Assembly (NCBI RefSeq): GCF_900104675.1
Contig: NZ_LT629945.1
Span: 2,346,756 to 2,410,755 of the forward strand
Origin: Angelakisella massiliensis
GTDB lineage: Bacteria > Bacillota > Clostridia > Oscillospirales > Ruminococcaceae
Length of the DNA: 64,000 bases
Direction of reading: 5' to 3'
The position numbers and the translations under genes were made by a program. Under the pieces are notes generated by a model that ran no database searches, was not told the DNA's origin, and saw only the letters and a list, made by a program, of their open reading frames with translations. Shown in pieces: positions 3,274-55,820 of this stretch (the stretch's first letter is position 1; each line of letters starts with the position of its first letter).

Positions 3274-4275
3274 TCAATCATCGTCTCCGTCAGAATCCAT
3301 AGCCGCGGCCCAATCGGGCTTTTTTCTTTCCTTCGGCTGCTGGTGAAACAGCACAGGAGAACTGTTGCTTCCCGGTACCGTTACCACATGAGGATATGGG
3401 AACTCTACGCCCCGGCGGTCAAACTCCTCTTTGATAGCCAGACGCAATCCCCGTTCCACCTCCCACTGCATAGCGGGTTTGACCCGGCAGGTAAGCCCGA
3501 TATCCACGCTGGACCCGGCAAATTCCGTGATTCCCAGCACCACCGGTTCCCCTTCCACCAGCTCCTGATGGGTATGGGCATAGTGCTCCGCCGCCTGAGC
3601 GATCACCTCCATCACCTGACGGGTATCAGCCTCATAGGCAGTGGAAATGGTCAGACGGGCGATATTGTAGCCTCTGGAATAGTTGATCACCCGAGAGATG
3701 GAGCCATTGGGTATGATCACCTGCTCTCCTTTGGGATTACGCAGATAGGTGACCCGAAGGGCTGTGGCTTCCACTGTTCCCTCCTCAGTCTCTGTTTTGA
3801 TGTAATCTCCCACCGAGAACTGGTTTTCAAACATCATGAACAGTCCTGTCACCACGTCCTTCACCAGGCTCTGGGCGCCAAAGCCGATGGCCACGCTTCC
3901 GATACCGGCTGCGGCGATGAGGCTGCTCATACCGCTTGTGAGATTAAATTGTCCCAAAATCATATAGGCGGCAATAAAATAAATCCCATACCGCGCCACA
4001 CTGCGAAAAAGGGTCATCATACTGCTGACCCTGCGGCTGTGCTGTTCATTATTTCGCCGCTTGGCCTGTTCGATCATTCCTTTTGTCCACCTGGAAACCA
4101 TAAAAAGGATGATCCGGGCCAGGATGAGAATGACCACTACCATGATCAAACGCCAAATCAGTTCTCCCAGGTGATCCAGAATATAATACCAAAGCTCTAC
4201 CACCTTCTGGTACAGCTGCTCTGTGATGCTGAGGGGATCTTCCCGAGTCAATGTCGTCAGCGGCATTAAGGTCAT
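3274..4275 (-). CDS. MscS family small-conductance mechanosensitive channel
   Basis: A 333-residue homologue of MscS, which opens under membrane tension and releases solutes on osmotic downshock. Three hydrophobic segments lie in the first ~150 residues. The pore helix region has the glycine/alanine-rich pattern SLIAAAGIGSVAIGFGAQSL, followed by the beta domain core FENQFSVGDYIKTETEEGTVE and the C-terminal alpha/beta cage domain. The start ATG follows AGGAGGAAACAAC. The gene overlaps the radC stop by four bases, so both are probably cotranscribed. The length is close to E. coli MscS plus a short tail. Confidence 0.9.
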   Translation of the reverse strand: MTLMPLTTLTREDPLSITEQLYQKVVELWYYILDHLGELIWRLIMVVVILILARIILFMVSRWTKGMIEQAKRRNNEQHSRRVSSMMTLFRSVARYGIYFIAAYMILGQFNLTSGMSSLIAAAGIGSVAIGFGAQSLVKDVVTGLFMMFENQFSVGDYIKTETEEGTVEATALRVTYLRNPKGEQVIIPNGSISRVINYSRGYNIARLTISTAYEADTRQVMEVIAQAAEHYAHTHQELVEGEPVVLGITEFAGSSVDIGLTCRVKPAMQWEVERGLRLAIKEEFDRRGVEFPYPHVVTVPGSNSSPVLFHQQPKERKKPDWAAAMDSDGDDD

Positions 4276-5087
4276 GTTGTTTCCTCCTGTGTTTGTTCCC
4301 GGCGTGATTCTTCCTCCAGCTTGTTGAGCAGTTCATCCAACTCCTTGGGATCGTAGTCTCCATCAGCGAAAGCGGCGCTGCTGCGAAAGCCTTCCAATGT
4401 GGACGGAGACAGCATTCCTCCTCCGGCCATGGAAATATATTCATCACGGGCTACGATGATATGGTCCAGCAGACGAATGGAAACGCCTTGCAGAGTGTTG
4501 TACAGCTGAATGGTGGTTTGCTTGTCCTTTCTGGAAGGCAGAGCCAGACCGGTGGGATGGTTATGGGCCAAAATCACACTGGTGGCGTTGCAGCGGATGG
4601 CCACCTCCACGATCTTCCTGGTGAGAATGGAGACGGAATCCCCTGTACCCTCGCTGATGGCCCCAAAGTACAGCACCCTCAAACGATTATCCAGACAAAT
4701 CAGGTAGCTGATTTCATGGACCTCGCCAATATACTTGGCCACCAGCTTCTTGCCCAGATAGTCCACCAGCGAACCGGTATGTTCTGCCTGATCATGAACC
4801 TTTTCTTCATAATACAGCTGGCAAAGCTGAGGAATCAGTTTAAGCAGCAGAGCGGAATTTTCGGAAATCCCCTCCACCTTGGTCAGCTCTTCCACAGGCG
4901 CGTCCAGTACCCGGGAAAATGTTCCGAAAGCTTCCAGCAAACGATGGGCAATCTCATTGGTATCCCGGCGGGGTATGGCATAAAACAGCAGCAGTTCCAG
5001 CACATTATGGGGTTCAAAGTTCTTCAGCCCTTGTTCCCGAAAACGTTTCTTTACCCGTTGACGGTGTCCCTCATGTGGATGGTCCAC
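4272..5087 (-). CDS. radC: RadC family JAB-domain protein
   Basis: RadC-type protein, 271 residues: an N-terminal UPF0758/HhH part (PHEGHRQRVKKRF, then VLELLLFYAIPRRDTNEIAHRLL) and a C-terminal JAB/MPN metalloprotease-like domain with the metal motif HNHPTG..PSRKD. The family is historically called a DNA repair protein, but its role is unproven. The start is taken at GTG 5085-5087 because AAGGAGG precedes it and PHEGHR then sits at the usual N-terminus; the upstream 35 codons look non-coding. The C-terminal acidic tail is longer than usual. It overlaps the downstream mscS by four bases. Confidence 0.88.
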   Translation of the reverse strand: MDHPHEGHRQRVKKRFREQGLKNFEPHNVLELLLFYAIPRRDTNEIAHRLLEAFGTFSRVLDAPVEELTKVEGISENSALLLKLIPQLCQLYYEEKVHDQAEHTGSLVDYLGKKLVAKYIGEVHEISYLICLDNRLRVLYFGAISEGTGDSVSILTRKIVEVAIRCNATSVILAHNHPTGLALPSRKDKQTTIQLYNTLQGVSIRLLDHIIVARDEYISMAGGGMLSPSTLEGFRSSAAFADGDYDPKELDELLNKLEEESRREQTQEETT

Positions 5088-43730: not shown

Positions 43731-44246
43731 ATGAAACTGATTTTAAGCGATCGCCCCCTTCAGCTGGACCTGAATGATCAGCAGGAAATACGGTTTATTG
43801 ATTTATCCACACTGAAGATTACCAACTGCGTCGGCTGTTTCGGCTGCTGGACCAAAACTCCCGGAAAATGTGTGATCCGGGACGATGCCCCCCATGTATA
43901 TCCCCTGATCGCCCAAAGCGATGCTGTTCTATATATCAGCCGCATTCGGTATGGAGGATACGACACTATCATGAAAACCATGCTGGAGAGAGCAATTCCC
44001 ATCCAGCAGGCCTTTATACGGATCGTGGATAGCGAAACCCACCATGTCCAGCGAAAGGTAGCCCCCAAGAATGCTGTTATCCTGGCCTATGGTGCTGACA
44101 GCAAGGAGGAGCAAAACCTTTTCCGCCAGTTGGTGGCCCGTAACGCCCGAAATATGAATTTTGAGCACTTTCAGGTTCATTTCTGCACCGAAGATTCCCT
44201 GGAAGCCGCCGTCCGGGAGGAGGTAAAAAAATGGAGCGGATCATGA
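43731..44246 (+). CDS. Flavodoxin-family protein lacking the N-terminal FMN loop
   Basis: A 171-residue protein of the NADPH-dependent FMN reductase/flavodoxin type with the redox-family motif NCVGCFGCWTKTPGKCVIRDD at 32-52. The middle segment DAVLYISRIRYGGYDTIMKTMLERAIP also fits. The usual N-terminal beta strand and phosphate loop (NGSPR) is missing; the protein begins directly at the second half of that unit. The ATG at 43731 sits about 50 bases after TATAAT (43681-43686); the ribosome site is weak (GGAGCG). It overlaps the next gene by 16 bases, which carries the missing NGSPR loop. Confidence 0.75.
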   Translation: MKLILSDRPLQLDLNDQQEIRFIDLSTLKITNCVGCFGCWTKTPGKCVIRDDAPHVYPLIAQSDAVLYISRIRYGGYDTIMKTMLERAIPIQQAFIRIVDSETHHVQRKVAPKNAVILAYGADSKEEQNLFRQLVARNARNMNFEHFQVHFCTEDSLEAAVREEVKKWSGS

Positions 44247-44836
44247 TTCTCAACGGCAGTCCCCGGGCATCGAAATCCAATTCCAGGCGATATGGCGCTA
44301 TGGTCTCAGCCTGCTGCAAAGGAAAGGCGGAATATTTTGCCATCACCAGACAAAATCATCGGCAACTAGCAGAACAGATGGAGCGCTTTTCTCATGTGGT
44401 ACTGGTGTTTCCCCTTTACGCCGATGGTATTCCGGTGACGCTGCTGAATTTTTTCAAAACCCTGGAGGAGTATCCTCCTGAAAATAAACCTGTTATCTCG
44501 GTACTGATCAACTGTGGATTTCTGGAGTATCAGCAGAATGATATTGCGGTGGAAATGGTGCGCTTTTTCTGCAGGGAAAATCACTATCCCTTCGGATCGG
44601 TTTTAAAAATTGGCAGCGGAGAGGCAATTCTGGATACCCCTTTTCGTTTTCTGGTTTCCGGAAGCATCAGAAAATTCTCCCGTTCCATTATGGCGCAGAA
44701 ATACCGCACCTTTCATGTCTCGATGCCGCTGACCAAAAAGCTGTTCGTCAAAGCCTCCACTAGCTATTGGACGGAATATGGCCGCAAAAACGGCATCACT
44801 GTAGAGCAGATGCAGACCATGGAGATTGAAGGCTGA
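44231..44836 (+). CDS. Flavodoxin-fold NAD(P)H oxidoreductase-like protein with NGSPR loop
   Basis: A 201-residue protein starting with the FMN phosphate loop MILNGSPRASKSNSRRYG, then VVLVFPLYADGIPVTLLNFFKTLEEY, the usual third-strand segment of the flavodoxin fold. It lacks the CxGCxxC cluster found in the preceding gene. The last ~60 residues are basic and of unknown role. It overlaps the previous gene by 16 bases and has GAGGAGG just before the ATG. The pair may form a heteromeric flavoprotein, or this may be an independent quinone reductase-like enzyme. Confidence 0.75.
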   Translation: MERIMILNGSPRASKSNSRRYGAMVSACCKGKAEYFAITRQNHRQLAEQMERFSHVVLVFPLYADGIPVTLLNFFKTLEEYPPENKPVISVLINCGFLEYQQNDIAVEMVRFFCRENHYPFGSVLKIGSGEAILDTPFRFLVSGSIRKFSRSIMAQKYRTFHVSMPLTKKLFVKASTSYWTEYGRKNGITVEQMQTMEIEG

Positions 44837-45089: not shown

Positions 45090-45335
45090 TTAAGCCATGA
45101 ACTTGGCGGAAGCATAGACGATAAAAGTCACAGCAAAAAAGATAATGACCAATACCTTGGTTACTCTGTTGAGGGTTGCGTTCATAGAACGGTCATTATT
45201 GGTGCTGAGGAAGGAATTGCCACCGCCCAAAGCGCTCAGCCCGTCGCTCTTGGGATCCTGAAACATCACGATCACAACAATAAGGGCGCTGACAATAATC
45301 ATTACGAATGCGCCGATCATTTCGATTGGGTTCAC
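45090..45335 (-). CDS. secG: Preprotein translocase subunit SecG
   Basis: SecG, 81 residues, is the small membrane subunit of the SecYEG channel: two hydrophobic helices (IGAFVMIIVSALIVVIVMFQ and VLVIIFFAVTFIVYASA) joined by the conserved loop SDGLSALGGGNSF. The start is GTG at 45333-45335, with GGAGGTGTTA ahead. It is monocistronic here; the commonly adjacent rnr and smpB genes are not present. Confidence 0.93.
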   Translation of the reverse strand: MNPIEMIGAFVMIIVSALIVVIVMFQDPKSDGLSALGGGNSFLSTNNDRSMNATLNRVTKVLVIIFFAVTFIVYASAKFMA

Positions 45336-45575: not shown

Positions 45576-47810
45576 TCACAGGGTCATCTGCTCTCCCCCG
45601 TTGGTGCTGCGGACAATGGCGCCGGTGGCAGGGAGATTCTTGGTTCTCAGGCGGTGGGGATTGTCCACCATTCCCTCCTCATAGGAAGAAACCTTGATCA
45701 CCCGCACACCTGTTTTCATGGTCATCACCTGCACACCCTGGGTATCTCTGGTGGATTTAGCCGCCAGCATAGCGGTGCTGACAATAAGCATCCGGGAAGC
45801 GGAGGTGGCAAAGAGATATTCCTTGTCCTCCACGCAGCTTTCCAGGTACACCAGGGGGGATTTGACGCTGTAGGCGCCCAGCAGCTTTTTCCTCTTGGTC
45901 TTGGTCTCATAGGAAGAAAGATCGATCTTGGCCGCCTTTCCGTTTTCAAAGACGAAGAACATAAAGCCCTTATAATCAGAGGTCACCGCCATATAAATGG
46001 CAGATTCCCCAGGGTCCATCCCAAGCTTGGAGGGGATATAATCCCCCAGGACGCTGGCCTTGGTGTCGGCAAATTCGCTTGCTCTGGACTTGTAAACCTG
46101 ACCCTTGTCGGTAAAGAACAGCAGATTGACGCTGTTCTGGCTGTCCAGCTCCTGAACGATCCGGTCCCCTTCCTTCAGTTTATGCTCACTGGACATCCGC
46201 CAGGACTGGGGGGTGATCTTCTTGAAATAGCCCTCAGCGGTGAAGAACAGCTTCACAGGATAATCCGGCAGCTCCTCCTCTTCCGGCTCCTCCGGGGCGT
46301 CCTCCTGATACAGCAGCTGGCTGCGCCGGGGCTCCCCATAGGTGCGGATGATCTCTTTCAGCTGGCTGATGATGACAGCGTCCAGCTTTTTGGGGGTGCG
46401 CAGGATCTCCTCCATCTCCTGGATATCCTTTAAGAGCTGTTCGATCTCCTGGGTGCGTTTGAGGATATATTCCCGGTTCAGATGCCGCAGACGGATCTCC
46501 GCCACAAACTCCGCCTGGACCTGATCGATGCCGAAGCCAATCATCAGGTTGGGCACCACTTCCCGCTCCTCCTCAGTCTCCCGGACGATGGCTACCGCCT
46601 TGTCGATGTCCAGCAGGATCTTCTGGAGGCCTTTGAGAAGATGGAGCTTTTCCTCCTTCTTGTGGAGGTCAAAAGTGATGCCACGGCGGACACATTCCCG
46701 CCGGAAAGCGGTCCATTCCTCCAGCAGCTCCCCTACTCCCATCACCTTGGGAGAACCGCCGATGAGGACGTTGAAGTTGCAGGAGAAGGTGTCCTCCAAC
46801 GGTGTGGTGCGGAACAGCTTCTGCATCAGCTTGTCCGGGTCCACGCCCCGCTTCAGGTCCATAGTCAGCTTGAGACCGGACAGATCCGTTTCATCCCGGA
46901 TATCGGAAATTTCCCGGATCTTTCCCTGCTTGACCAGGTCCACAATCTTGTCCATAATGGCTTCCACCGTGGTGGTGGGAGGAATTTCAGTGACGTCGAT
47001 ACAGTTGTTCTGCTTGTCGTAGGCGTATTTGCTCCGCACCCGTACCGAGCCCCTGCCGGTGCGGTAGATTTTTTCCAGCTCGTCCTCATCGTACAGGATA
47101 AAGGCGCCGCCGGAAAAATCCGGTGCTTTCAGGGTGTCGATGAGGCGGCAGTTGGGGTTTTTGATCCAGGCAATGGCGGTCTCGCACACCTCCAACAGGT
47201 TGAAGGAGCAGATATTGCTGGCCATGCCCACGGCGATACCGGTGTTGGCGTTGACCAGGATGGAGGGAAAAGTGACCGGCAGCAGCACCGGCTCCTCCAT
47301 GGTGTTGTCATAGTTATCGGTAAAGTCCACGGTATCCTTGTCAATATCCGCGAACAGCTGGGAGCAGATCTTTTCCAGCTTTACCTCAGTGTACCGGGAA
47401 GCAGCGTAAGCCATATCCCGGGAATAGGCTCGGCCGAAGTTGCCCTTACTCTCCACATAGGGTACCAGCAGCGCCCCATAACCACGGGAAAGGCGAACCA
47501 TGGTTTCATAAATGGCAGCGTCGCCGTGGGGGTTCAGGCGCATGGTCTGGCCCACCACATTGGCGGACTTGATCTTGCCTCCGGTTAAAAGCCCCATCTT
47601 GTACATGGTATACAGGATCTTCCGGTGGGCAGGCTTGAAGCCGTCGATCTCCGGAATGGCCCGGGAGACGATGACGCTCATGGCGTAGGGCATATAATTC
47701 TGCCGGAGGGTATCGGTGATGGGCTGAGGCACCACCAGTCCGGCGTTTTCAATATGTCCGGTGAGGGTGCCATGACGCTGGGTTTCCGGTTCCTTTTTCT
47801 TTTTAGCCAA
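45576..47810 (-). CDS. parC: Type II topoisomerase subunit A, ParC/GyrA-like (divergent)
   Basis: A 744-residue DNA-cleaving subunit. The N-terminal winged-helix core carries SVIVSRAIPEIDGFKPAHRKI and the active-site tyrosine near 140 in AAS-R-Y-TEVKL. The breakage-reunion domain and coiled-coil gate follow (HLNREYILKRTQEIEQLLKDI). The C-terminal part has beta-pinwheel-like segments but no GyrA box (QRRGGKG), and the protein is ~80-100 residues shorter than GyrA, so topoisomerase IV-like decatenation is more likely than gyrase activity. It overlaps the cinA start region by eight bases. It pairs with the B subunit at 49140. Confidence 0.88.
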   Translation of the reverse strand: MAKKKKEPETQRHGTLTGHIENAGLVVPQPITDTLRQNYMPYAMSVIVSRAIPEIDGFKPAHRKILYTMYKMGLLTGGKIKSANVVGQTMRLNPHGDAAIYETMVRLSRGYGALLVPYVESKGNFGRAYSRDMAYAASRYTEVKLEKICSQLFADIDKDTVDFTDNYDNTMEEPVLLPVTFPSILVNANTGIAVGMASNICSFNLLEVCETAIAWIKNPNCRLIDTLKAPDFSGGAFILYDEDELEKIYRTGRGSVRVRSKYAYDKQNNCIDVTEIPPTTTVEAIMDKIVDLVKQGKIREISDIRDETDLSGLKLTMDLKRGVDPDKLMQKLFRTTPLEDTFSCNFNVLIGGSPKVMGVGELLEEWTAFRRECVRRGITFDLHKKEEKLHLLKGLQKILLDIDKAVAIVRETEEEREVVPNLMIGFGIDQVQAEFVAEIRLRHLNREYILKRTQEIEQLLKDIQEMEEILRTPKKLDAVIISQLKEIIRTYGEPRRSQLLYQEDAPEEPEEEELPDYPVKLFFTAEGYFKKITPQSWRMSSEHKLKEGDRIVQELDSQNSVNLLFFTDKGQVYKSRASEFADTKASVLGDYIPSKLGMDPGESAIYMAVTSDYKGFMFFVFENGKAAKIDLSSYETKTKRKKLLGAYSVKSPLVYLESCVEDKEYLFATSASRMLIVSTAMLAAKSTRDTQGVQVMTMKTGVRVIKVSSYEEGMVDNPHRLRTKNLPATGAIVRSTNGGEQMTL

Positions 47811-49104
47811 TGGCCTGCGCCTCCTGTTCCTTTGATATTTCTGATGCTCCGGGATACTTCTGGGCCGTTCTCAGCAGCAGATGAAGTGCATGGGAAGAAG
47901 CCAGATACCGAATCAGCTCCCGGGCGTCTCCATCCCTGCGGTTGAGGTTCAGCTCCAGCACTTCCTTGTGCCAGGAGCTGTCCACCGCCACATAAACAAG
48001 GCCCACCGGTTTGCCTTCCGATGGCTCCGGTCCGGCGTTGCCGGTCACTGCCACCGCCAGGTCCGCCCCGGAAAAACGCCGCGCACCAGCTGCCATCTCC
48101 CCGGCGGTTTCCGGAGAGACAGCGGAATAGGTGTTCAGAGTCTCCCGAGAGACCCCCAGCATCTTTTCCTTCATTTCATTTGAATAGGTGACCATTCCGC
48201 ACTGGAAAACCTGGGAAGCGCCGCTGACTTCTGTGATCCGCTTGGCTACCAACCCGCCGGTGCAGCTTTCAGCGGTGGCAGCGGTAAGGCCCTTGTCCCT
48301 GAGGAGATGGACCAGAGCGCTTTGCAGCTCCCCATCGGTCTCACTGTAAAGATACTGCCCCGCCTCTTCCTTGATCCGGTCCACCACCGGCTCCAGCAGC
48401 GACGCTGGGTCCTCTCCATCCCGCACCTGGGCAGTGACCCGCAGCATCACCTCACCAGTTTTGGCGTAGGGGGCGATGGTGGGATTGACAGCCTCCACCA
48501 TCATATCGTGGAGCCGCTGCTCCAAAGCTGATTCCCCGATGCCGAAGAAATGAAGGTTCCGGGAAACCAGATGGGTATCGCTGTCCTTGCGGATATAGGG
48601 CAAAGCCTGCTCCAGCAGCATGGGCTTCATCTCTCTGGGGGGCCCGGGGAGCATAATGGCCATCTTGCCGTTTCCTTCCAGAGCACAGCCGGGAGCGGTG
48701 CCGCAGCGGTTCTCAAAAACGGTGCAGCCTTCCGGCATCATGGCCTGCTTGCGGTTGTTCTGGGTGAAGCTGCATTGGAGGCGGCTGAAATAGGCTTCGA
48801 TCCGCCGCCAGCTCTCCTCATGGAACACCAGCTTCCGTCCGAAATACTGGGCGATGATCTCCTTGGTCAGATCATCATAGGTGGGCCCCAGGCCACCGGT
48901 GGTGATGACCAGATCAGACCGGGAAAAAGCCAGATGCAAGGCCTCTGTCAGCCTTCCAGGGTTATCCCCCACCACCGTTTGATGATATACATTGATGCCC
49001 AGCGCCGCCAGCTCCTTGGCAATCACGGCAGCATTGGTGTTAACCACATCCCCCATGAGCAGCTCGGTGCCCACGCAGAGGATCTCCGCAGAAGTGATGT
49101 GCAT
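47803..49104 (-). CDS. cinA: CinA family protein (competence/damage-inducible)
   Basis: A 433-residue CinA with the N-terminal MoaB/MogA-like COG1058 domain (ILCVGTELLMGDVVNTNAAVIA; TTGGLGPTYDDLTKEIIA; MLPGPPREM) and the C-terminal nicotinamide-mononucleotide deamidase-like domain (TAATAESCTGGLVAKRITEVSGAS; GVSRETLNTYSAVSPETAGEMA; AVTGNAGPEPSEGKPVG). CinA is linked to pyridine nucleotide salvage and, in some bacteria, to competence with recA. Here it lies between the two topoisomerase subunit genes, 35 bases after the B subunit and overlapping the A subunit by eight bases. The normal partner recA is not adjacent. Confidence 0.95.
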   Translation of the reverse strand: MHITSAEILCVGTELLMGDVVNTNAAVIAKELAALGINVYHQTVVGDNPGRLTEALHLAFSRSDLVITTGGLGPTYDDLTKEIIAQYFGRKLVFHEESWRRIEAYFSRLQCSFTQNNRKQAMMPEGCTVFENRCGTAPGCALEGNGKMAIMLPGPPREMKPMLLEQALPYIRKDSDTHLVSRNLHFFGIGESALEQRLHDMMVEAVNPTIAPYAKTGEVMLRVTAQVRDGEDPASLLEPVVDRIKEEAGQYLYSETDGELQSALVHLLRDKGLTAATAESCTGGLVAKRITEVSGASQVFQCGMVTYSNEMKEKMLGVSRETLNTYSAVSPETAGEMAAGARRFSGADLAVAVTGNAGPEPSEGKPVGLVYVAVDSSWHKEVLELNLNRRDGDARELIRYLASSHALHLLLRTAQKYPGASEISKEQEAQAIG

Positions 49105-49139
49105 GCCTTCATTCTTCCTTTCTGTCAGCGGTGCGGGGT

Positions 49140-51131
49140 TCAGGAGATATCCGCCAGTTCCAGATACAGCCCGCCGTTTTCCGCGATATATTCCTTTCGT
49201 CCCGCCAGATTGTCCCCCAGCAGCAGCTCGAACATCTCCGCTGTCTCGGCTGCGGCGTCGGGAGTGACCCGGATCAGTCTCCGGGTTTCAGGATTCATGG
49301 TGGTCAGCCACATCATTTCCGGCTCGTTTTCGCCCAATCCCTTGGAGCGCTGGAGGGTATACTTGGTATTGCCCAGTCTGGCGCAGATGGCGTTTTTCTC
49401 CTGCTGGTCGTAGGCAAAATAGGTCTCATCCTTGGTGTTGATCTCATAAAGGGGGGACTCCGCGATATAGACGTACCCCTCCTCAATAAGGGTTGGGGTC
49501 AGGCGGTAAAGCATGGTGAGAATCAGGGTGCGGATCTGGAAGCCGTCCACGTCGGCATCGGTGCAGATGACGATTTTGTTCCACCGCAAGCCCTCCAGAT
49601 CAAAGGAATTCAGTTCCTTGTTGGACCGGGAGGAAACCTCCACCCCGCAGCCCAGCACCTTGAGAACGTCCACAATGATATCGCTTTTGAAGATGCGGTC
49701 ATAGTCCGCCTTGAGACAGTTGAGGATTTTGCCCCGCACCGGCATGATGGCCTGGAACTCGGAATCCCGGCCCAGCTTGCAGGAACCCAGAGCCGAATCA
49801 CCCTCCACAATGTACAGCTCCCTGCGGCTGACGTCCTTGCTGCGGCAGTCCACAAACTTCTGCACCCGGTTGGACATATCCAAAGTACCGGCCAGCTTCT
49901 TTTTCAGATTCAGGCGGGTCTTTTCAGCATTTTCCCGGCTGCGCTTGTTGATGAGCACCTGTTCCCCGATCCGGGCGGCATCGTCTGGATTTTCAATGAA
50001 ATAAACCTCCAGCTGATGCTTGAGGAAGTCCGCCATGCACTCGTAAATGAACTTGTTGGTGATGGCCTTTTTGGTCTGGTTTTCATAGGAGGTCTGGGTG
50101 GAAAAGCTGGAGGAAATGAGCACCAGGCAGTCCTCCACATCCTGGTAGGTGATCTTGGATTCATTTTTCTGATAGCGGTTGCCCTGTTTGAGGTAGGCGT
50201 CGATCTGGGAAACCATGGCCACCTTCACCGCCCGCTCCGGGCTGCCGCCGTACTCCAGAAAGCTGGAATTGTGGTAATATTCCGTCAGGTGCATTTTATT
50301 GGAAAAACACAGGGCCACATTGAGGCGCACCCGGTAATCCGGCTTGTCCTCCCGGTCCCGGCCTTCCCGCTCACCGCTCCAGAACTGCACCGGCGTCAGC
50401 TGCTGGTCTTTGCTCAGCTCCTCGCAATAGTCCCGGATGCCGTTTTCATAGAGGAAAACCGTCTCCTGGAATTTGCCGTCCGGCTGCTGGCTGCGCAGCA
50501 AAAATTCCACGCCGCTGTTGACCACCGCCTGGCGCTTGATCACATCCAGAAAATAGCTTTCGGGAATGTCGATATCAGTAAAAACCTCCAGATCGGGACG
50601 CCAGCGGATGCGGGTGCCGGTTTGTTTGAGGCGGGTGGCTTCCTTTTTGAGGCCACCAATATTCTCGCCCTTCTCAAAGTGGAGATTATACTTAAAGCCG
50701 TCCCGATAAACCTCCACATCCATATATTCAGAGGAATACTGGGTAGCGCAGGAGCCCAGGCCATTGAGGCCCAGGGAAAACTCATAGCTTCCATCCCCCT
50801 GGCTGTCATATTTACCGCCGGCGTACAGTTCACAGAACACCAGCTCCCAGTTATACCGCTGTTCCTTGGGGTTATAATCCACGGGACAGCCCCGGCCAAA
50901 GTCCTGCACCTCCACCGAATGGTCCTTGAACCGGGTGACGATGATCTTTCGTCCATAGCCCTGGCGAGCCTCGTCGATGGCGTTGGAAAGGATCTCAAAC
51001 ACCGAATGCTGGCAGCCCTCCAGACCGTCGGAACCAAAAATAACGCCGGGCCGTTTCCGCACCCGGTCCGCCCCTTTCAGGGAGGAAATGCTCTCGTTAT
51101 CGTATACGTTTTTCTTTCCTTTTGCCGCCAC
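49140..51131 (-). CDS. parE: Type II topoisomerase subunit B, ParE/GyrB-like (divergent)
   Basis: A 663-residue ATPase/TOPRIM subunit. GHKL motifs are present but altered: FEILSNAIDEA (N box), VEVQDFGRGCPVDYNP (usual DNGRGIPV reads DFGRGCPV) and FSLGLNGLGSCATQYSSE (usual GLHGVGAS). TOPRIM motifs are VEGDSALGSCKLGRDSEFQAI and CTDADVDGFQIRTL; the KGLGENEPEMMW..TTMNPETR end is typical. It is divergent from the main GyrB family, as for a second clostridial type II topoisomerase. It is the first gene of B-cinA-A. The plus strand carries a long chance frame antisense to it. Confidence 0.88.
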   Translation of the reverse strand: MAAKGKKNVYDNESISSLKGADRVRKRPGVIFGSDGLEGCQHSVFEILSNAIDEARQGYGRKIIVTRFKDHSVEVQDFGRGCPVDYNPKEQRYNWELVFCELYAGGKYDSQGDGSYEFSLGLNGLGSCATQYSSEYMDVEVYRDGFKYNLHFEKGENIGGLKKEATRLKQTGTRIRWRPDLEVFTDIDIPESYFLDVIKRQAVVNSGVEFLLRSQQPDGKFQETVFLYENGIRDYCEELSKDQQLTPVQFWSGEREGRDREDKPDYRVRLNVALCFSNKMHLTEYYHNSSFLEYGGSPERAVKVAMVSQIDAYLKQGNRYQKNESKITYQDVEDCLVLISSSFSTQTSYENQTKKAITNKFIYECMADFLKHQLEVYFIENPDDAARIGEQVLINKRSRENAEKTRLNLKKKLAGTLDMSNRVQKFVDCRSKDVSRRELYIVEGDSALGSCKLGRDSEFQAIMPVRGKILNCLKADYDRIFKSDIIVDVLKVLGCGVEVSSRSNKELNSFDLEGLRWNKIVICTDADVDGFQIRTLILTMLYRLTPTLIEEGYVYIAESPLYEINTKDETYFAYDQQEKNAICARLGNTKYTLQRSKGLGENEPEMMWLTTMNPETRRLIRVTPDAAAETAEMFELLLGDNLAGRKEYIAENGGLYLELADIS

Positions 51132-51323
51132 TATTTCTCCTCCGTCCTGGTTGATTCTGCCTTCAAAGCCCTGAAACTAAAAAGACAACTCATTTTATTA
51201 TGAAGGTTGCCGCCGTTTTTGTCAAGGCTGAGACAATGGGGGCTTCCCGGCCTTTTTGCAAAAGAAGCCGAAAATTCATCACTGTTTTTTGAAAAAACGG
51301 GAAAGCTGCCGCATTAGGGGTCT

Positions 51324-51873: not shown

Positions 51874-53793
51874 TTATTGGTTGTTCTGTTGATCCTGATC
51901 AGGCGCTGCTTCCTCCTGCGCGCCGGTGGTCTCCTCATTTTGGGCTTCCTCCGGCTGCTTGGGGCTCAGCTCACCTTTCATCAGCTTCTCAAAGGTCTCG
52001 CCATCGATCTTCTCATTCTTCTTCAGATACTCGGCCAGCTCATGAAGCTTATCCATATCCGATTTCAGAATCTCGGTGGCTTGATCGTAAGCGGTATCGA
52101 TGAGGCTGCGGATCTCCTCGTCGATCATAGCGGCCACCTGCTCGGAATAGCCGCGGTCCTGAGCCAGATCCATTCCCAGGAACACTTCGTTCTGATCCTT
52201 GCCGTAAACCATGGTGCCCAGCTTCTCGCTGAAGCCGTACCGGGTGACCATGGCCCGGGCGATCTTGGTAGCCCGCTCAATATCGTTGGAAGCACCGGTG
52301 GAGATATCCTCCAGCACCAGCTGTTCCGCCACACGTCCGCCCAGAAGGATGCAGATATCCTCCTTCATCTCATTGCGGGTCTTATACATGACATCCTTCT
52401 CCGGCAGAGACAGGGTATAACCGCCTGCGCCGCCCCGGGGAATGATGGAGACCTCATGGACTTTATCCTGGTTGGGGAAGTGATAGGTGACAATGGCATG
52501 GCCAGCCTCGTGATAAGCAGTCAGGCGGCGCTCCTTTTCCAAAATGACATGGGAACGCTTCTCCGGTCCCACGATCACCTTGATGGTAGCCTCCTGGATC
52601 TCCTCCATGGTGATGGCCCGCTTATCCTTCCGGGCGGCCAGCAGCGCCGCTTCGTTGACCAGGTTTTCCAGATCCGCTCCGGTGAAGCCGCCGGTGGTCT
52701 GAGCGATCACCTTCAGATCCACATCGGGGCCCACAGGCTTGTTGCGGGTATGAACCTTGAGGATGGCCTCACGGCCCTTGACATCGGGATAGCCCACTGT
52801 TACATGGCGGTCAAAACGGCCGGGACGCATCAGGGCCGGGTCCAGAATATCCTTTCGGTTGGTGGCGGCAATGACGATAACGCCGGAATTGGCGCCGAAG
52901 CCGTCCATCTCTACCAGCAGCTGGTTAAGGGTCTGCTCCCGCTCATCATGACCGCCGCCCAGGCCGGCGCCTCTGTGACGGCCTACAGCGTCGATCTCAT
53001 CAATAAAAACAATGCTGGGAGCGTTCTTCTTGGCCTGCTCGAACAGGTCACGGACACGGGAAGCACCCACGCCCACGAACATCTCCACAAAGTCGGAACC
53101 GGAGATGGAGAAGAAGGGTACGCCCGCCTCACCGGCAACCGCCTTGGCAAGAAGGGTCTTACCGGTACCGGGAGGGCCCATCAGCAGCACGCCCTTGGGA
53201 ATACGGGCGCCCAGAGTATTATACTTCTGTGGATTTTTGAGGAATTCCACAATCTCCTGAAGCTCCTGCTTTTCCTCATCGGCTCCCGCCACATCGGCAA
53301 AGGTGACCCGGTCCTTATCATCCTGCATCCGGGGCTTTGCTTTGGCAAAGGACATGGGGTTCCCGCCGCCCCGGGCCTGGCGCATAATGACAAACCAGAA
53401 CACCGTCATCACACCGATGAGCAGCAGTGTGGGCAGCAGCGTCACCCACCAGGGGGTAGCCTTGGGGGCGATATAGTTCTGTACAATGGGAGAATCCGGA
53501 TGGGTCTCATTGTACTCCTTGACCATCTCATGGGTATCGTTGTAGAAAACGGTGAGATTGGGGACCATGTAATAAACCTCTTTATTGTTGTCCCGCAGCT
53601 TGATGGTCAGCTCACCGGTTCCATAATCCAGGGTATATTCTTTTACCTGATCGTTTTGGAAATAACTGAGAATCTCGTTGTAAGGTGTTGTTTCCGGAGT
53701 ATTGCTCACGGAGTACACCTGGGTCGCCACGATCATCAGCACCACAATAATGGCCAGATAGATGAACAGTGACTTTTTGCTGTTACCTCCCAA
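51874..53793 (-). CDS. ftsH: ATP-dependent zinc metalloprotease FtsH
   Basis: FtsH, about 639 residues, is the membrane AAA+ protease for misfolded and short-lived membrane proteins. TM1 is near residues 8-28 and TM2 near 115-140, then AAA: Walker [15 protein letters not shown], Walker B IVFIDEID, second region of homology [20 protein letters not shown]. The zinc site is HEAGH. The C-terminal tail is rich in Glu, Gln and Asp. The start is placed at TTG 53791-53793 because GGAG is then nine bases upstream; the alternative TTG at 53800 touches the ribosome site. It follows hpt and tilS, the classical order. Confidence 0.95.
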
Positions 53794-53871
53794 TGGTTTC
53801 AACTCCTGTCTGTGTCTCGTTCAAAATTCCCCGGATGACCCGCCGGAGACGGGCAGCCTGATACGGCTGGT

Positions 53872-54432
53872 TTATTCCCCTTCCTTGTTATATACCTTGG
53901 GGGAAAGGATGCCCACAAAGGGCAGGTTGCGGTACTGCTCATCATAATCCAGACCATAGCCGATGACAAACTCATCAGGAATGGTGAAACAGGTATAATC
54001 CGGCTTGATGTCCGCGGTGCGCCGCTCCGGCTTATCCAGCAGTGTGGCAATGCGGATGCTGGCAGGCTGCCGCTCCCGGAGCATGGCGGTCAGATAGCTG
54101 AGGGTCAAACCGCTGTCCAGAATATCTTCCACAATCAGGATATCCATTCCCTCAATGGGTTTATCCAGATCCTTTAATATTCTAACCACACCGGTGGTCT
54201 TTACCCCCGCGCCATAGCTGGAAACCGCCATAAAATCCATTTTCAGCGGCAGTTCAATATGGCGGATCAGGTCCACCAGAAAGGTCACAGAGCCCTTGAG
54301 GACACCGATGATCATCAGATTTTTGCCCTCATAGTCCTTGGTGATCTGAGCTCCCAGCTTTTGGGTGGCTTCCTTGAGCTCTTCTTCCGTTATCAGAACA
54401 CGTTCAATATCACTGCTGTGAAAATAACTCAT
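53872..54432 (-). CDS. hpt: Hypoxanthine phosphoribosyltransferase
   Basis: A 186-residue purine-salvage enzyme joining hypoxanthine (or guanine) to PRPP. The PRPP motif VEDILDSGLTL is near 101-111, preceded by MDFMAVSSYG, with the C-terminal FVIGYGLDYDEQYRNLPFVG motif of HPRTs. It overlaps tilS by four bases; ftsH follows after about 78 bases. The tilS-hpt-ftsH order is conserved in Firmicutes. Confidence 0.96.
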   Translation of the reverse strand: MSYFHSSDIERVLITEEELKEATQKLGAQITKDYEGKNLMIIGVLKGSVTFLVDLIRHIELPLKMDFMAVSSYGAGVKTTGVVRILKDLDKPIEGMDILIVEDILDSGLTLSYLTAMLRERQPASIRIATLLDKPERRTADIKPDYTCFTIPDEFVIGYGLDYDEQYRNLPFVGILSPKVYNKEGE

Positions 54433-55820
54433 TCTACGTCCTCCAACACTTCAATGTAAAGAATCCTGCTGGTCTGCGCCGTCACCCGGCAGCGGTCCGC
54501 CGCTCCCAGGCCCTGAGCCCAGATGATACCCTCACGGTCCTCCATCACCAGCATTCTGGAGATGGCGCCGCTGGTAAGGCCCCGGCTTCCCGTCCGATAC
54601 AGGAAGGGAATGCCGTTGTCTTTCCCCCGCTGCCGCAGCAGATCCTGCGGCTTTGGAGAGCGCAGTAAAACAGCTTTACATATTGTATCATAATCCAACT
54701 GGTTTTTTAAGTCCTTATTGTTAATTTTTTCTGCCGAAATCCCTGTCTTTTCCGGTAAAACCGTCAACCGCAGATTTCTGCCGGGAAAAACGGGGTACAA
54801 AAGGCTCTTTTCCCACGGTAAATCCAGCCACGGCGTTTCAAAAGGCGGAAGCGGCGGTATTTCCCGCTCCAGCCAAACCTCCCGGGAAGCGGCCCGCAAC
54901 CGCAGTCCCCGGCGCGGCTCCACCGCTCCCTTTCCCTGGAGGGTACAGCGCTCCAATCTCTCCAGCACCCCGGAGGAAACCGGAACCTTCTCCCGTTCCA
55001 GCAAACGCAGCCACAAATTTTCCCGTACAGGAGGCGGCAGATCCAGCAGACGCTGCCGGTCCAGACGGCCTGTTTCCAGCGTACACTCCCGTTCCGCCCG
55101 GTCTGTCAGCTCCTCGGTCATCTTCCACTGGTCGGTCATCTGAGCCATCAGGCTCTGAAAAGCCCGGGGCAGACCGGAATTGAGCTGACGCAGCACCGGA
55201 AGCACCTGATGACGAAGCTTGTTGCGGCTGTAGATATCGGTACAGTTGGTGGAATCGGTGCGGTAGTCCTGTCCCGCCTCCATCAAAAAGGCTTCCACCT
55301 GCTCCCTGGTGCAGTCCCGCAGGGGACGGATGATTCTGTCCCGCACATAAGGAATGCCCCGCAGGCCGCGAATCCCGGTGCCTCTGGTAAGGTTGAGAAG
55401 CACTGTTTCCATGGCGTCATCCAGGGTATGGGCGGTAGCGATGATTCCATCCTCCCCTGCCCACTGATGGAAAAATTCATAGCGCCGCAGGCGGGCATAT
55501 TCCTCCAAGCCCATCCCAGCCTTTTTCGCCTCAGTTTTAGCATCGAAGGAGCTACAGACAAACTCCACCCCCAGCTTCTGAGCCAGACGGCGGACAAACT
55601 CCTCATCGCCGTCGCTTTCCTCCCCCCGCAGGCAGTGGTTCACATGACCCACCTTTAACTTCAGCCCCAAACCGGGAGCGATCTGCCGCAAAAAGACCAG
55701 CAGGGCGACAGAATCCGCGCCACCGGAAACCCCCAGCAGCACACTGTCACCCTGTTTGAGCATATGATGTTGTTCGATGGTTTTGGCCGCGATCAGCGGC
55801 AGTGTCTGTTCCTCTTTCAA
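54429..55820 (-). CDS. tilS: tRNA(Ile)-lysidine synthetase TilS
   Basis: A 463-residue ATP-dependent ligase that converts C34 of tRNA-Ile(CAU) to lysidine, changing both its amino-acid identity and its codon reading. The PP-loop LLGVSGGADSVALL is at about 28-41, followed by the N-terminal PP-ATPase domain (NHCLRGEESDGDEEFV) and the C-terminal TilS domains. It overlaps hpt by four bases and is 18 bases downstream of dnaB. The start ATG is close to the dnaB stop. Confidence 0.95.
   Translation of the reverse strand: MKEEQTLPLIAAKTIEQHHMLKQGDSVLLGVSGGADSVALLVFLRQIAPGLGLKLKVGHVNHCLRGEESDGDEEFVRRLAQKLGVEFVCSSFDAKTEAKKAGMGLEEYARLRRYEFFHQWAGEDGIIATAHTLDDAMETVLLNLTRGTGIRGLRGIPYVRDRIIRPLRDCTREQVEAFLMEAGQDYRTDSTNCTDIYSRNKLRHQVLPVLRQLNSGLPRAFQSLMAQMTDQWKMTEELTDRAERECTLETGRLDRQRLLDLPPPVRENLWLRLLEREKVPVSSGVLERLERCTLQGKGAVEPRRGLRLRAASREVWLEREIPPLPPFETPWLDLPWEKSLLYPVFPGRNLRLTVLPEKTGISAEKINNKDLKNQLDYDTICKAVLLRSPKPQDLLRQRGKDNGIPFLYRTGSRGLTSGAISRMLVMEDREGIIWAQGLGAADRCRVTAQTSRILYIEVLEDVE

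Follow-up and report, generated by a model that had tools for sequence, protein, structure and literature searches.

The window analysed here, a stretch of 64,000 nucleotides from the genome of Angelakisella massiliensis (contig NZ_LT629945.1), carries on its minus strand a gene for full-length CinA placed between the genes for the two subunits of a type IIA DNA topoisomerase. The first gene of the set (49140..51131, GTG start) encodes a GyrB/ParE-like protein of 663 amino acids, hereafter subunit B, with GHKL ATPase, transducer, TOPRIM and C-terminal domains. A junction of 35 bases (49105..49139), with a purine-rich stretch resembling a ribosome-binding site, separates it from cinA (47803..49104, ATG start), the product of which, 433 amino acids long, combines MoCF/COG1058, KH and PncC-type amidohydrolase domains. 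The last gene (45576..47810, TTG start) specifies the GyrA/ParC-like subunit A of 744 amino acids, with the Arg139-Tyr140 pair and a short C-terminal pinwheel, and its start overlaps the end of cinA by 8 bases (47803..47810), an AGGAGG motif lying upstream, inside cinA. This order and both junctions (+35 and -8 bases), first described in a reading of the DNA letters alone (the sequence-only reading), were confirmed from the minus-strand open reading frames (ORFs). We consider it likely that the locus is an operon of a divergent topoisomerase-IV-like enzyme with an insertion-tolerant junction between the B and A genes, and that cinA is a passenger in it.

Subunit B significantly matches the Pfam families for DNA gyrase B, for TOPRIM and for the C-terminal domain of gyrase B; its HATPase_c match, at 21.9 bits, does not reach the curated cut-off of 26.4 bits. 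The sequence-only reading had considered the ATPase motifs of B to be altered. The two stretches in question, DFGRGCPVD and GLNGLGSCATQ, are both present, and residues around the motifs indeed differ from those of GyrB, but the catalytic and nucleotide-binding positions that we compared are unchanged: 16 of 17 positions are identical in B and in GyrB and ParE of Escherichia coli, including Glu46, Asn50, Asp77, Lys107, the G-loop glycines, Gln-Thr-Lys 352-354 and the TOPRIM residues Glu443, Asp525 and Asp527, and at GyrB position 81 B has Asp, like ParE. An inactive ATPase was rejected on the strength of this comparison, since the compared catalytic positions are all present in B. Subunit A has the gyrase/topoisomerase IV A domain and a weak beta-pinwheel repeat, and matches E. 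coli GyrA at Arg50, Lys59, His62, His95 and Arg139-Tyr140; it differs in the first His of HPHGD, replaced by Asn, and in Ser83, replaced by Ala. The two subunits together thus have the type IIA catalytic set (GHKL Glu, G-loop, QTK Lys, TOPRIM Glu/Asp and Arg-Tyr). A motif search of the window protein found no GyrA box in A, in agreement with the sequence-only reading, and this is expected of topoisomerase IV. Two PF00521 genes were found in the genome, the other one encoding a canonical GyrA with QRRGGRG, to which A is 33% identical. At the locus of this canonical gyrase (L234), gyrB and gyrA are themselves separated by a gap of about 1.2 kb (3702-4946), in which we saw no convincing same-strand gene.

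In an AlphaFold model of A (mean predicted local distance difference test score, pLDDT, 77.8; predicted template modelling score 0.62) the C-terminal domain is predicted well and, with the strands read by eye, shows some four to five blades of a pinwheel; the model is poor (pLDDT <50) at residues 110-142, the stretch that holds the catalytic Tyr. Foldseek ranks chains of gyrase and ParC highest for it; on gyrase of Staphylococcus aureus the breakage core superposes at about 2.7 Å over 480-490 columns, and full-length fits have root-mean-square deviations of 17-21 Å. A review (PMC10342825) describes a six-bladed pinwheel with the GyrA box for gyrase, and a broken five-bladed pinwheel without the box for topoisomerase IV. 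As the box-less A and its pinwheel resemble what the review gives for the latter, we call the enzyme topoisomerase-IV-like. The enzyme is predicted to decatenate and relax DNA without supercoiling it.

The divergence noted in the sequence-only reading is real, yet the enzyme belongs to a conserved clade. In a sample of the class, A was matched at an identity of at least 50% in 142 of 293 genomes, comprising all 17 from the order of the window's species and 125 of the 276 outside it; below this level identity falls to at most 39%, save for one genome with A in two fragments. In a separate sample of the order, a search with A matched all 197 genomes, 192 of which have a clade member (four of these apparently as split genes) and five of which (G025, G033, G061, G097 and G127) have canonical-type matches only, the calls having been made by eye from the best E-value. 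After removal of 13 A rows and 77 B rows as too short, RYTE is present in 148 of 149 distinct clade A proteins, and QTK and GLNGLG occur in 99 and 96, respectively, of 99 distinct clade B proteins, so that the motifs of B taken as altered are normal for the clade. NPHGD replaces HPHGD (window positions 47505-47534, A residues 93-102) in 139 of the 141 distinct clade A proteins readable there, and 125 of the 141 have Ala, Gln, Met, Gly or Leu at the Ser83 position, where the canonical GyrA of the same genome likewise has Ala. The GyrA box was found in 29 of 40 other distinct A proteins; the 11 without it are seven Gram-positive ParC proteins (L244-L250), E. coli ParC, the intermediate L236, and L238 and L266, which had been classed as GyrA.

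Phylogenetic analysis places the clade A proteins on a branch of their own, apart from GyrA and the ParC of Bacilli (Gram-positive), with a Shimodaira-Hasegawa-like approximate likelihood-ratio support of 98, and the B tree separates the clade from GyrB with support of 95 to 100. E. coli ParC is the next branch to the clade in the unrooted A tree, though under a long-branch warning, which also applied to E. coli ParE and to genome G551; ParC of Bacilli sits with GyrA. Genome G551 encodes, at locus L236, an A-like protein of 38-39% identity that branches beside the clade and adjoins a very divergent B. A viral origin of the topoisomerase was rejected, no relative having been found among viral contigs at a sensitivity suited to close relatives.

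To describe the surroundings of the A gene we used 153 distinct A loci, taken from sets chosen by similarity to A and deduplicated by exact match of one A stretch, so that a few genomes may be counted twice. A same-strand cinA stands upstream of A in 13 of these rows, which correspond to 10 genomes, all of the window's genus and with A identity of at least 74%; these are all 10 genomes of the genus. B is visible upstream of cinA in seven of them (G000, G205, G204, G201, G200, G198 and G203), and in G202 cinA is cut off by the contig end. A strain oddity or an assembly artefact was therefore rejected, and the case of a cinA insertion found only in this strain, which the sequence-only reading had named as its refutation, is not what the survey of gene order gave. 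The remaining 140 rows, with A identity of at most 71%, lack cinA upstream of A. B is in view in 122 of them, and cinA lies between B and A in none of these 122, so in the genomes sampled the arrangement is not kept across distant lineages.

The same junction is occupied by other genes elsewhere. The B-A gap in the 122 loci is 100 bases or less in 82, 101-300 bases in eight and more than 300 bases in 32, the cargo of long gaps including an HD-domain protein, an HAD hydrolase, a pyridoxamine oxidase-like (PNPOx) protein and a nucleotidyltransferase. A Pfam scan of ten cargo ORFs matched eight to families (Zn_dep_PLPC below its cut-off) and two to none, and further HD and HAD cargo was assigned by eye. 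In two related genomes (L126 and L128) a secreted-looking protein, of 743 and 610 amino acids, respectively, lies in the gap. Sister species of the window's own genus have additional same-strand genes there, namely for an EcsC-like protein (G200 and G198) and an alpha/beta hydrolase (G200, G198 and G203) before cinA, and for a Phd-like protein, with Doc (G200 and G197) or without it (G198 and G203), in the cinA-A interval. The Phd-like genes, in two genomes together with Doc/Fic, lie at L228 5496-6106, L230 1229-1839, L232 2321-2518 and L229 8633-8806; they may represent a toxin-antitoxin module within the topoisomerase operon, the Phd-like gene having no Pfam match and owing its name to its sequence and place as read by eye. 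The L230 contig mirrors itself, with A and cinA on both strands, and is probably an assembly artefact.

Upstream of B in the window lie ftsH, hpt and a gene for a PP-loop family protein, which we take to be tilS (51874..55820, minus strand), together with a gene for a protein of 119 amino acids without a matched family; secG (45090..45335, minus strand) follows A, as it does in a part of the related loci. The upstream neighbourhood recurs in some relatives from outside the genus, and B and A are commonly adjacent in loci of the order and in named genomes, partly preceded by tilS-hpt-ftsH. Across the 23 rows that contain all four of hpt, ftsH, B and A (some genomes may be repeated), gaps of more than 300 bases occur at the B-A junction in four, three of these being from the window's genus and two of the three from one genome, at the ftsH-B junction in 11, and at the hpt-ftsH junction in none. 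The B-A junction is thus tolerant, yet not the most open one. Further away, two neighbouring plus-strand genes (43731-44836) encode proteins with weak matches to NADPH-dependent FMN reductases, below the curated cut-off.

The cinA gene itself appears ordinary. Its three Pfam domains all score above their cut-offs, the NCBIfam equivalog NF001813 (PRK00549) is matched with 508.6 bits against a cut-off of 379, and with the TAESCTGG motif present the protein is predicted to be an intact nicotinamide mononucleotide (NMN) deamidase/pyrophosphatase. The gene is patchily distributed, being found (at an E-value of 1e-40) in 123 of 197 genomes of the order and 62 of 100 of the family. By our reading, 119 of the 192 genomes of the order that carry a clade A have cinA, as do four of the five lacking a clade A; the occurrence of cinA is thus independent of that of the topoisomerase in this sample. 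Among 55 cinA loci outside the genus (best matches only, up to 30 per search), neither A nor B was seen in the flanking sequence available, which spans up to 1.5 kb on each side, and 27 have thiI upstream of cinA; in members of the family that do not belong to the thiI group, cinA is flanked by many different genes. A search with the sequence patterns used found neither recA nor pgsA beside these other cinA genes. One other genus (L051) has a cinA outside the operon, some 3 kb downstream of A and on the other strand. In the cinA tree the copies of the genus fall among those of the family (the joint branch has a support of 97), which suggests that the gene moved within the family, and a new gain of cinA from outside the family was rejected on this ground.

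One B-cinA-A transcript, with translational coupling, is plausible, as the genes are on the same strand with tight junctions, a promoter-like site TTGACA-17-CATAAT (51197..51225, minus strand), known from its consensus match of 11/12, precedes B, and the sole same-strand promoter-like match from the B start to the A end is one of 9/12, within B. The 8-base overlap holds if A begins at TTG, a start that has AGGAGG upstream and agrees with the clade consensus N-terminus MxKK. There are also two terminator-like sites within cinA on the operon strand. The scanned region has 14 promoter-like sites where shuffled sequences lead one to expect 5.5, and 13 terminator-like sites where 10.1 are expected; any one such site therefore carries little meaning.

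How, then, did cinA come to lie between the topoisomerase genes? In the scenario that we favour, B and A would form a topoisomerase-IV-like enzyme of a clade widespread in the class, filling the slot of a second enzyme beside the canonical gyrase, and their junction would tolerate incoming genes. In an ancestor of the genus, cinA, a gene of many positions in the family, probably landed there. Selection for linkage of B and A would carry any co-directional gene between them along, and cinA would have been kept as a co-transcribed passenger through the lasting linkage of the two topoisomerase genes. Co-transcription, selection for linkage and the absence of a functional link between CinA and DNA topology are all parts that we infer.

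Several observations weigh against this scenario. Eleven loci with at least 6.9 kb of sequence upstream of A show no B (the other seven of the 18 rows without B have less than 6.9 kb there), which makes selection for B-A linkage an inference, and in many of the 32 gaps of more than 300 bases no gene was identified. The genus copies of cinA are joined on their own with a support of 56, leaving a single insertion unproven. All 10 genus genomes retain cinA upstream of A, at cinA identities down to 61%, and ftsH is gone from upstream of B in three of the five genus genomes with at least 3.7 kb of sequence there, so the retention of cinA is not trivial. Finally, the model scores lean towards gyrase: B reaches 519 and 503 bits with models of gyrase B and 409 and 389 bits with parE models, and A scores 509 bits with the gyrA model and 426 and 392 bits with the parC models.

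These scores bear directly on the idea that the enzyme is a second gyrase, or has a novel activity, with GLNGLG, NPHGD and the deep branch reflecting a distinct biochemistry. Both subunits score higher with gyrase models than with the ParE or ParC equivalog models, the clade forms its separate deep branch, and the window copy falls below every NCBIfam cut-off concerned, whether of gyrase (gyrB 503 of 882.4, gyrA 509.4 of 877), parC (parC_Gpos 391.7 of 813.25, parC_Gneg 425.6 of 628.9) or parE (parE_Gpos 409.4 of 899.95, parE_Gneg 389.1 of 723.35); the best NCBIfam model for A is a subfamily-level DNA topoisomerase (ATP-hydrolyzing), with 572 bits, likewise below the curated cut-off. Because of the failed parC and parE cut-offs and the higher gyrase scores, we do not file the enzyme as a proven topoisomerase IV. 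Nevertheless, with the GyrA box in none of the 149 distinct clade A proteins, a short C-terminal domain, standard catalytic residues and a genome that also encodes a canonical gyrase, we regard a second gyrase or a novel activity as unlikely.

A different objection is that cinA was placed for its function. NAD-dependent DNA ligase releases NMN in replication, so co-expression of an NMN-recycling enzyme with a replication-linked topoisomerase might match CinA supply to replication and untangling. The tight junctions with possible translational coupling, the intact CinA, and the pyridine-nucleotide recycling reactions assigned to CinA in the literature all agree with this, and the persistence of cinA in all 10 genomes of the genus, where other neighbours have changed, would allow for a benefit specific to the genus. 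Such a function is nonetheless quite improbable given the absence of cinA from all 122 distinct A loci outside the genus in which B could be seen, the unrelated genes occupying the same gap in other lineages and in sister species, and the lack of a positive association between cinA and the topoisomerase in the order sample. The link between CinA and topology control suggested by the sequence-only reading is for the same reasons unsupported. We give very little credence to a reading in which the clade would be an uncharacterised third main type IIA lineage that replaces topoisomerase IV in much of the class, with its expression in the genus tied to NMN recycling through translationally coupled cinA.

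With the passenger interpretation, a tempting connection of NAD (nicotinamide adenine dinucleotide) metabolism with DNA topology is removed as unsupported. What emerges is a putative topoisomerase-IV-like enzyme, carried by about half of the class genomes in the sample, the B-A junction of which would gather passenger genes. Quinolones are anchored at the Ser83 position of GyrA, and with residues other than Ser there in most clade A proteins, drug response is a testable question, although Ala at this position is shared by the canonical GyrA of the window's genome. Among the papers listed by the literature searches, in a library without subscription papers and preprints, we found no account of a cinA-topoisomerase operon or of the clade.

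Compared with known systems, the enzyme is most reminiscent of topoisomerase IV (ParE2ParC2), with which it shares the domain set, the catalytic residues, mostly adjacent B and A genes, a box-less A and the position of a second enzyme beside gyrase. It departs from topoisomerase IV in that its clade branches deeply apart from the ParC proteins of Bacilli and E. coli, and in that it falls below the parC and parE equivalog cut-offs, scoring lower there than with the gyrase models. With DNA gyrase (GyrB/GyrA) it has the fold and the catalytic machinery in common, but its A has no GyrA box, is a shorter protein with a shorter C-terminal domain, and coexists with a gyrase encoded elsewhere in the genome. 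CinA, for its part, is like other full-length CinA proteins (COG1058-KH-PncC) in all three domains and as an NF001813 equivalog, and it differs from them in place only, the window gene lying between topoisomerase genes and those of nearly half of the other loci compared in the order following thiI.

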